A DNA stretch of 64,000 bases from Desulfobulbus sp. (GTDB lineage Bacteria; Desulfobacterota; Desulfobulbia; Desulfobulbales; Desulfobulbaceae). A program made the translations under genes and the position numbers. Below, in pieces: positions 5,487 to 54,516 of this stretch. The stretch lies in assembly GCA_011051875.1 (NCBI GenBank), contig DRKI01000053.1, positions 1 to 64,000 of the forward strand, in the 5' to 3' direction. The notes under the pieces were generated by a model, which had not been told where the DNA came from, did no database searches, and worked only from the letters and a program-made list of their open reading frames with translations. How positions within the stretch are numbered: position 1 is the first letter of the stretch; each line of letters starts with the position of its first letter.

Positions 5487-6211
5487 TGCTCAAGATCCGG
5501 AACCTGGATGCCGGTTACGGCAATCTGCGGGTATTGAAAAATATCTCCCTGCATGTGGACAGCGGCGAGATCGTGACCATGATCGGTGCCAACGGCGCCG
5601 GCAAGACCACCCTGCTCCATGCCATCATCGGCCTGGTCCGGTCGACCGCAGGTGAGATCGTCTTCAGGGACCTGGATTGCCGCAGGCTCGACACCCGCCG
5701 TATTGTCATTGCCGGCTGCGCCCTGGTACCCGAGGGACGGCAGGTCTTTGCCGCCATGAGCGTGGAGGAGAACCTGGTCCTGGGCGGGCATGTGCTGCAG
5801 AGGCGGGAGGGCAGGGCAGCCGTACTGCGTGAGCTTGGCCACCAGTACGAACTCTTTCCCGTACTCCGGGAGCGGCGCGGCCAGCTTGCCGGCACCCTTT
5901 CCGGCGGCGAACAGCAGATGCTGGCCATGGGCAGGGCGCTCATGTCCAGGCCGCGGCTGGTGATGATGGATGAACCTTCCACCGGCCTTGCCCCCCTGGT
6001 GGTGCGCGATATCTTCCGGGTCATCGTCAGGTTGCGGGAGGAGGGCAACACCGTGCTTCTCGTTGAGCAGAACGCCCGTGCCGCCCTGAACATCGCCGAT
6101 CGCGGCTACGTGCTGGAAACCGGCAAGGTGATCCTGCAGGGGCCGGCCGATGACCTGCTCGCCAACCGTGACGTGCAGCGCGCCTACCTGGGCAGGGAGA
6201 AGGTGGAATAA
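5486..6211 (+). CDS. livF: Branched-chain amino acid ABC transporter ATP-binding protein LivF
   Basis: Second ABC ATPase of the Liv system, 241 residues. It shows Walker A GANGAGKTTLL, signature LSGGEQQMLAMGRAL, Walker B LVMMDEPSTGLAP and the family motif LVPEGRQVF. The ATG uses the last base of the livG stop. It is the last gene of the liv operon. Repeat copy 1A begins 9 bases after its stop. Confidence 0.93.
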   Translation: MLKIRNLDAGYGNLRVLKNISLHVDSGEIVTMIGANGAGKTTLLHAIIGLVRSTAGEIVFRDLDCRRLDTRRIVIAGCALVPEGRQVFAAMSVEENLVLGGHVLQRREGRAAVLRELGHQYELFPVLRERRGQLAGTLSGGEQQMLAMGRALMSRPRLVMMDEPSTGLAPLVVRDIFRVIVRLREEGNTVLLVEQNARAALNIADRGYVLETGKVILQGPADDLLANRDVQRAYLGREKVE

Positions 6212-6219
6212 AGGAAACT

Positions 6220-6359
6220 GGTGACATCGCCGTGCGGTGTCGTGCTGCCCCGCATACCGGGGGTATAGCGAATCGGCGCGCCTGTTCAGAGTCGGGGCGC
6301 CTGTGTCGACTTACAGTGTCGGGGCTGTGCCGACAACGAGCCAGGGCCCCTGCGATCAG
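6220..6359 (-). repeat. Dispersed intergenic repeat family 1, copy A
   Basis: Read on the minus strand, this segment aligns along its length with 54358-54516 and more loosely with 31002-31152. Shared blocks with copy C, in order, are CTGATC-CAGG, GCTCGTTGT, GGCACA, a GCCCCGA block, CAGGCGCGCC, and the 16-base TACCCCCGGTATGCGG. It fills most of the livF-paaK gap. No open reading frame is conserved among copies, so it is a non-coding repeat of unknown function. Confidence 0.75.
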
Positions 6360-6413
6360 TTACAACACGGCTGTCCGCAATGACCGGGCGGCGGTATCTT
6401 CATGGTGTACCGG

Positions 6414-26480: not shown

Positions 26481-26577
26481 GGTCCTTGCTGTTTGGATTG
26501 TGCCTTGTTTCTTGTTCCTTGCATTCAAGACATTTTCAGGCGGTTCGCGACGGCCTTTGTGAACAATGCGGGATGAC

Positions 26578-26659
26578 CGGTCACGGGGTATCCGGCGACC
26601 CGGAATCGATACAGGACCTGTACGCGGTTGTGGGGCGCCACGGCTGCGCGTGATCGAAC
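26578..26659 (+). repeat. Dispersed intergenic repeat family 2, copy E
   Basis: Aligns without gaps over 82 bases with the reverse complement of 39687-39768; about 63 positions match by hand count. Ends are inverted repeats: CGGTCACG at the left and CGTGATCG near the right. It lies between divergent rlmD and the response-regulator gene. Non-coding, function unknown. Confidence 0.75.
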
Positions 26660-26775
26660 GTCACAATTGTTTGCAGAGCAGGGCTGTTTAATGCTACCAT
26701 GGCCGGACCAGACGGGGTAACCGGCACCCCGTGTCGTGCCGGTCCGGTTGAATCTTTGTCCTCTTTTTTTTCCTC

Positions 26776-30852: not shown

Positions 30853-31001
30853 CCCTATTTTAGCCGCCTGAACAGGTATGCGCAGGCGTTGCCGGGAGTC
30901 ACTCCACCAGGACGGCCAGCCCGGGCCGTATTGGGGACCTGGCATGGCACCCGCCTTCTGACGTGGTCGTCTGTCTCCTGACTTCTGCTATCTGATTGCA
31001 A

Positions 31002-31152
31002 CTGATCACAGGATTGTTAACTCGTTGTTTTCACATCCTCAAAACTGTAGGCCCACCCAGGTGCCCCGTCCCTGGGCAGGCGTGCCGGTTCGCTGCAGGC
31101 CCTCTACGCGGTCCGGCGTGACCGTGCAGAGGCGGGTTGGCTGTGCCAACCA
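31002..31152 (+). repeat. Dispersed intergenic repeat family 1, copy B
   Basis: Shares with copy C the blocks TGATCACAGG, ACTCGTTGTT, CACATCCTCAA, GGTGCCCC and GACCGTGCAGAG in the same order and similar spacing. It ends in a perfect 7-bp hairpin, GGTTGGC with GCCAACC. It lies in the gap before the aminotransferase, with no conserved reading frame. Confidence 0.72.
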
Positions 31153-31187
31153 CCTGATTTCTGATTCCGTGAAACGGAGACCAAGCA

Positions 31188-39562: not shown

Positions 39563-39686
39563 GCCCGTGGTCCTGCGCGGGCAGGGCACTCTCGCCCCGG
39601 CTGCGGAACATTCTCTGTAAGCGGTCACAGGGCACCCCATCTGCACGTGCTCGAACCTCCCGATATGCGGGGTGTATAATCGCGAA
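39563..39686. other. Start of waaA-carA gap, degenerate family 1-like sequence
   Basis: The gap of 357 bases holds no gene. Plus-strand bases about 39614-39680 show a CACAGGGCACCCC-ATCTGC stretch and a TATGCGG resembling, weakly, the family 1 core in copy C. It may be a broken family 1 copy joined to the family 2 copy D that follows. Bases 39769-39919 have nothing firm. Confidence 0.35.
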
Positions 39687-39768
39687 GTTCGATCACGCAC
39701 AGCAGTGCCACCCTGCAACCGCTTGCAAGTCCTGTATTGATCCGGAGTAATTGGATATCCCGTGATCG
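39687..39768 (-). repeat. Dispersed intergenic repeat family 2, copy D
   Basis: Reverse complement of this segment aligns without gaps with 26578-26659. Its ends form a perfect inverted repeat, CGATCACG and CGTGATCG. It lies 151 bases before carA. No reading frame is conserved. Confidence 0.75.
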
Positions 39769-39919
39769 GGTACCATGCTCCTGCCATCGGAAACTCCATG
39801 CCCGCAAGGGCGAAACCTGTAACAACGACCGAGAACAAGGAGGTGACGCCGGGATCGTCTTGGCCGCAGGTCGACGTGATTCGGTGTGATTGCCCTGTTT
39901 CCCATGTTCGGATGATTCT

Positions 39920-53731: not shown

Positions 53732-54361
53732 ATGGACAGGTTGTCTTTCACCACCTTGCATCTGCTGGCACTCCTGGTCCTGCTGCCAGGGCTCCTGTGG
53801 GCGGGGTCACCGGACCTGGACCCGGCCGGCGCCCGGGACGCGGGAATGGCGGCCGGGATGGAAACCTCTTTGCCGGAGCCCGGCCTTGCGGTTCTCTACA
53901 TTGATGGATTTTTCCGAAACATAGACCAGATGCCTGCCGGGACAGACGCTTTCCGCCGGGGCAGACGGGGTGCGCCCGTGCTCCTGCTCGACCATAAGGG
54001 GGGCAGGCAGGACCCGGTTTTTGCCAGCGGCCGCAGCCGCGGGGTGGGTATGATCCTGACCGGCCTGCTGCGCCTGGATACGCCCGGGACCTACCGCTGG
54101 CAGGCCCTTGCCAACGACGGAATCCGGATGACGGCAGGTGGCCGTCTGCTCTTTGAAGACCCGGGCGTGCACGGTGACCGGCTGACCCCCGTGGGCCAGT
54201 TGCAGGTCGCGCGGCCGGGCTGGTACCCGGTCACCATCCTCTACTTCCAGCGCAAGGGCACCTCGGCCCTCAGGTTGTTCTGGCAGCCGCCGGGGGCCCC
54301 TGCCTTCAGCCTGGTGCCCGCGTCCGTTTTCTGGCACCGGGGGGACGCCCGGCGCAACTGA
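53732..54361 (+). CDS. Exported PA14-domain protein
   Basis: 209 residues from the ATG at 53732 (GGAG seven bases before). A signal peptide (DRLSFTTLHLLALLVLLPGLLWA) is followed by one PA14-like beta domain. GLAVLYIDGFFRNIDQMP opens it, and LRLDTPGTYRWQALANDGIRMTAGGRLLFEDPGVH, cited by its parts TPGTYRWQALANDGIR and GGRLLFED, is diagnostic. PA14 domains bind sugars in adhesins and glycosidases, so a surface or periplasmic carbohydrate-binding role is likely. It is divergent from the M1-ChaN gene. Its stop codon lies inside the start of repeat copy 1C. Confidence 0.82.
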   Translation: MDRLSFTTLHLLALLVLLPGLLWAGSPDLDPAGARDAGMAAGMETSLPEPGLAVLYIDGFFRNIDQMPAGTDAFRRGRRGAPVLLLDHKGGRQDPVFASGRSRGVGMILTGLLRLDTPGTYRWQALANDGIRMTAGGRLLFEDPGVHGDRLTPVGQLQVARPGWYPVTILYFQRKGTSALRLFWQPPGAPAFSLVPASVFWHRGDARRN

Positions 54362-54516
54362 TCACAGGGTTGCTGACTCGTTGTTGGCACATCCTCAACA
54401 CTGGACGTTGGCACAGGTGCCCCGAATCTGCCCAGGCGCGCCTATTCGCTCTACCCCCGGTATGCGGAGCGGCGCGACCGTGCAGAGTCTGGGTGCCTGT
54501 GGCGGCTTGCCACCCG
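54358..54516 (+). repeat. Dispersed intergenic repeat family 1, copy C
   Basis: The longest clear copy; it begins CTGATCACAGGG, whose TGA is the stop of the PA14 gene. It carries TACCCCCGGTATGCGG in common with copy A and GACCGTGCAGAG in common with copy B, and ends with an imperfect GGGTG...CACCC hairpin. It lies before serA. Confidence 0.75.

Follow-up and report, generated by a model that had tools for sequence, protein, structure and literature searches.

The three related intergenic segments in the 64-kb stretch of DNA analysed here (the window) are copies of one transposable element without a gene, i.e., a MITE, of about 157 bp, for which mobility, exact ends, target duplications of 8 bp and empty sites were all observed. 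The family is best explained as a MITE with IS66-family ends that is very probably moved in trans by an IS66-type DDE transposase encoded elsewhere, and it is from the ends that we infer this partner. MITEs are already known as a kind; what is unusual in this family is that a single plan, with a one-sided covarying hairpin, persists across an entire bacterial order. The assignment gives a name to a repeat that could otherwise pass, in Desulfobulbus-like genomes, for a regulatory RNA of unknown kind; with the model and the ends defined here it can be annotated.

Copies, ends and target duplications

In the initial annotation the three segments were listed as a dispersed repeat family occurring in both orientations. 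Full-length alignment united them as one element, with copy A inverted and copies B and C forward (Table 1); copy B shares 76% identity with C over 148 aligned nt, and copy A shares 82% identity with the reverse complement of C over 123 aligned nt. The repeats themselves are real, while the boundaries given for them were off by a few bases, the true element C extending over 54354-54510 and not 54358-54516. A fourth full-length element (39617-39773), which belongs to a sister family beginning GTAACCGATCACGGG, was absent from the original list. Another copy of this sister family, built on the same plan, lies at 26577-26668 of the window and is the inverted-repeat partner of the fourth element at 76%.

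Table 1. Features of the MITE family located in the window.
Feature	Position	Strand	Evidence
Copy A, inverted, right end decayed	6208-6363	-	Covariance model 63.4 bits; 82% identity to C
Copy B, full-length, right tip degraded	30998-31154	+	Covariance model 115 bits; 76% identity to C; G002 without it
Fourth full-length element, sister family (GTAACCGATCACGGG... type)	39617-39773	-	Covariance model 71.6 bits; end pair 157 bp apart; flanks 6/8
Copy C, full-length, 157 bp	54354-54510	+	Covariance model 136.5 bits; BLAST family; flanks; G002 and G001 empty
Left-end module of copy C	54354-54402	+	GTAAC-N3-TCACAGG...; unpaired in consensus structure
TGA stop of upstream frame, element-supplied	54359-54361	+	Sequence; G002, without the element, uses TAG further on
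Hairpin of copy C (internal right-end copy, apical loop, right end)	54403-54510	+	Fold; covariation

The host assembly (230 contigs totalling 3.09 Mb; completeness 80%) contains at least 40 copies of this dispersed family of ~157 bp. A BLAST search with copy C returned at least 41 matches, with E values down to 1e-87 for the self-match and 1.7e-52 for the next best. When two mismatches at most are allowed, the initial 15 bases occur at 82 places in the host compared with 0 for the reversed control, some of the 82 being members of the sister family. According to a simple home-made gene finder trained on recognisable genes, 39 of 40 host copies are intergenic, while 87.5% of the window is coding. 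The whole-genome search proposed in the initial annotation thereby yielded copies that are many, significant and placed between genes, rather than random similarity or matches inside conserved coding genes. Their orientation varies, and all gene arrangements are occupied. At 157 bp, the element is too short to encode a transposase.

The consensus element ends in GTAA...TTAC, and flank-aligned copies start with GTAACTGATCACAGG and finish with GTGCCTGTGACGGCTTAC. Terminal inverted repeats are present, the left end reading GTAAC-N3-TCACAGG and the right end GTAAG-N3-TCACAGG, with GTAA tips on both sides. With the ends fixed at the consensus, at least 7 of the 8 flanking bases are equal in 12 of 40 host copies, compared with ~0.015 expected at equal base frequencies; the host duplications (8/8 or 7/8) include GTTTTCGC, CGCGTTTC, AACAGAAC and GCCACGAC. 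In relatives, where small shifts of the ends were allowed, 33 of 46 extracted copies have a flank match of at least 7/8 (over half 8/8). Copies that are 99-100% identical lie between differing perfect duplications in genome G038, which points to recent movement there. The same-genus genomes G002 and G001 are without the element at sites B and C; the region of site A aligned poorly. The early suggestion of a non-autonomous mobile element is backed by the precision of the ends, by the 8-bp duplications and by the sites found empty. The hairpin was also considered as an independent mobile unit and rejected, none of 77 hairpins having six or more matching flank bases at its own borders. As no duplication ever borders a hairpin by itself, the mobile unit consists of left end plus hairpin.

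Other elements of the same plan were seen in G001. One, starting GTAACCCCTCACGGG, lies at the place of copy A (L142, G001:C9:1550-2060), and has a near-perfect palindrome of ~64 bases and the 8-bp duplication GTGCAGCC; another, starting GTAATCCCTCACGGG, lies at the place of copy B (L145, G001:C222:14800-15420). Furthermore, a 63-bp miniature with both ends, flanks equal at 7/8 and no hairpin is present at positions 2838-2901 of L178 (G000:C84:11000-15000).

The hairpin and its range across the order

The element comprises a left-end module of ~50 nt followed by a hairpin of ~107 nt, in which the right end and its own inverted copy are arranged around a short loop. Folded as RNA, copy C reaches -76.8 kcal/mol (z -3.6), and it folds as DNA too. 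Covariation was assessed on an alignment that spans at least a dozen genomes and 46 full-length copies; in it, 28 of the 39 predicted pairs show a compensatory change, and standard pairs occupy 94.6% of cells compared with 83.9% after shuffling. The covariation score is 0.425, compared with 0.217 for shuffled columns and 0.06-0.11 with the partner slid; the structure, having been predicted from the same alignment, is somewhat favoured in this test, although the difference is nonetheless large. The apical loop is conserved, and length is fixed across the family. The check for covarying stems that had been recommended was thus positive, and the description of the repeat as a structured element holds.

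A DNA search detected the element in 20 of 57 genomes (the host and relatives). The covariance model, at E≤1e-5, extended this to 78 of 116 genomes and 41 of the 49 genera of the order, a tally that is soft in its lower part because calibration was short and weak matches may be other hairpins; many of the matches are full-length with E <1e-15. Elements from more remote families within the order have kept the plan, a length of 151-158 and the 8-bp duplications, while their ends have diverged, for example to GTAACCGTTCAGCAG and GTAACTATTCAGCAG. Among named records from outside, the core is matched exactly in one only, the metagenome-assembled genome Desulfobulbus sp. HyVt-436, and the covariance model agrees; on this basis the host was regarded as a Desulfobulbus-like bacterium. 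No match was present in plasmid and phage collections, and a phylum-wide pattern search of 395 genomes returned nothing, with few carriers drawn and with a loop pattern that misfits the host copies too, which makes it a poor guide to range.

The element resembles the prokaryotic MITEs, of which Chunjie of Geobacter uraniireducens, QMITE of Coxiella and Correia of Neisseria are examples, in being short, gene-less, mostly intergenic and multi-copy, with terminal inverted repeats and target duplications (PMC10969869). It differs from them in its order-wide occurrence, its fixed length and architecture, and its one-sided covarying hairpin. IS66 is unmentioned in this 2024 review of prokaryotic MITEs (PMC10969869), and in the open-access papers searched no MITE of IS66 or ISBst12 type is described. 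REP/REPIN sequences with their RAYT transposases are likewise many-copy intergenic hairpins, whereas the present element has ends of DDE type and is flanked by target duplications of 8 bp. Single-strand transposases, to which this comparison refers, are not known to leave a duplication. The ERIC sequences of enterobacteria are intergenic imperfect palindromes of similar size found in many related species; in the present case, by contrast, target duplications and end family are clear, and the likeness is one of general description.

The usual picture of a MITE is that of a remnant, short-lived and specific to one genome. A single architecture over 41 genera, together with paired hairpin changes and fresh insertions, raises the question of what keeps the hairpin. 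It would be kept either by selection on nucleic-acid structure or by arm-to-arm correction during copying. We regard it as possible, at somewhat less than even weight, that the family is an order-wide, gene-less mobile lineage whose hairpin is a selected RNA or extruded-DNA structure needed to persist or move. If the hairpin is selected, these MITEs would form an evolving lineage in their own right, as opposed to decaying remnants of an insertion sequence, and the same guarded weight covers both statements jointly.

It is rather unlikely that the family is primarily a mobile device of structured RNA or single-stranded DNA, in which a hairpin that is expressed or extruded would be functional (for example, as RNase III substrate, read-through insulator or small RNA) and selected, with the MITE ends serving as its vehicle. 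The compensatory pairs, the proportion of paired cells and the covariation score argue for such a device, as do the conserved apical loop, the fixed family length and the spread over 41 of 49 genera, where most of the matches listed are full-length. However, neither promoter-like nor terminator-like patterns were found when copy C was scanned, and nothing in Rfam scored above the gathering threshold. The varied orientation and the occupation of every gene arrangement also count against it, and arm-to-arm correction or shared end recognition could yield paired changes without function. Moreover, the 63-bp copy with 7/8 flanks is without the hairpin, though this may have been lost after insertion. 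Of the earlier idea of a regulatory RNA family, the structure stands, and further evidence points neither way.

Weak Rfam matches (microRNA families, V_AS5) lay far short of the gathering scores and were attributed to the chance similarity that any long hairpin can show. In G039, one copy with 91-93% identity to its sisters (L225 compared with L224) carries several changes in both hairpin arms together, as though one arm had served as template for the other; this pattern fits arm-to-arm correction as well as selection.

IS66-type ends and the probable transposase

An IS66-type transposase acting in trans is favoured because the GTAA tips, the 8-bp duplications and the CCCCATCT block of the MITE match IS66 insertion sequences. 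The inverted repeat of IS66 starts with GTAAGCG and is accompanied by 8-bp repeats (PMC11946415), while ISDge4 of the ISBst12 group, within IS66, has the ends GTGACTACTCAGCA / GTAACTGCTCAGCA and an 8-bp repeat (PMC12898284). IS66 elements of the same order have the tips GTAAGCG or GTAACT-N2-TCA and 8-bp duplications, as in L094 (tip GTAAGCGCCACGTAAACC; AAATGTTA on both sides), L105 (tip GTAACTTCTCAATAATCCC; GATTCTTG on both sides) and L122 (tip GTAACTGTTCAGGTC; ATTTTATT on both sides). The best agreement between MITE tips of the order and sampled IS66 ends is 12 of 13 bases; for the host family it is 10 of 13, a weak match that chance gives in 16% of trials. The inner block CCCCATCT, or a close variant, is located at position 17 in classical IS66 ends and at position 18 in MITE right ends; there, 26 of 46 copies have it with no more than one mismatch, compared with 0.6% of random places. 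Over the 20-30 bp of an IS66 terminal inverted repeat, what the MITE right end has in common is the tip and this block. The MITE left end has the IS66 tip only, and the CCCCATCT block is absent from it.

The element is like the IS66 family, including the ISBst12 group, in its GTAA tips, 8-bp duplications and CCCCATCT at right-end position 17-18. The IS66 elements, however, contain a transposase gene and measure 1.5-2.6 kb, whereas the present element is gene-less, at 157 bp, and has an extra internal inverted right end and a short left end without the inner block. The MITE hairpin was absent from the sampled IS66 elements, and thus the likeness is limited to the ends.

In the proposed mechanism, an IS66-type DDE transposase would bind both ends of the element, GTAAC... 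on the left and, in the inward direction, GTAAG...TCACAGG...CCCCATCT on the right, and insert it, leaving 8-bp duplications; the insertions persist almost exclusively between genes. The inverted copy of the element's own right end, lying between the two ends, turns ~107 of the 157 bases into one long hairpin, which paired changes have preserved throughout a bacterial order.

That the mover is instead a non-IS66 transposase, sharing GTAA tips and 8-bp duplications by coincidence, is improbable. In its favour, many carrier assemblies, some of them holding recent copies, are without an IS66 transposase. No PF03050 (IS66 transposase) match was found in the host assembly, which is 80% complete, and PF03050 is also missing from several carriers that are rich in copies and retain intact duplications, G038 (98% completeness) among them. 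On the other hand, draft metagenome assemblies often lose multi-copy insertion sequences. GTAA tips and 8-bp duplications are, moreover, recorded for IS66 (PMC11946415, PMC12898284), and the inner CCCCATCT block is common to both at almost the same position. The absence of PF03050 from the host and from these carriers also counts against the IS66-type transposase that we prefer, although a partner gene is no part of what defines a MITE. Some carriers have an IS66 transposase, but without MITE-matching ends. The closed genome G039 has a sole PF03050 gene, with an open frame of 379 aa, whose ends agree with the MITE tips at 10-11 of 13 bases. A longer element with the same ends, as expected of an autonomous partner, was not found near 20 sampled host right ends. 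These results raise the question of how such elements persist where no partner transposase is visible. As a separate observation, G033 (31 PF03050 matches) and G026 are IS66-rich, and no MITE copies were detected in them; the number of transposase genes in a genome does not track that of MITE copies.

Finally, the notion that G+C-rich gaps are alike by chance has virtually no probability in view of the host E values and the reversed left-end control given above.

Copy C and the upstream frame

Copy C has the tips GCAA on the left and TTGC on the right, between the flanks CGCCCGGC / CACCCGGT, of which 6 of 8 bases are equal. The initial annotation had placed its start within the stop codon of a PA14 gene. 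The PA14 identity of the upstream frame has no Pfam support at E≤1e-5, and the relation to the stop codon is the reverse of that described: the element begins in the last codons of the frame, and its own GCAACTGATC gives the TGA. In G002, without the element at this site, the frame reads on to its own TAG. At copy C, then, the element furnishes the stop codon for the gene behind which it landed.
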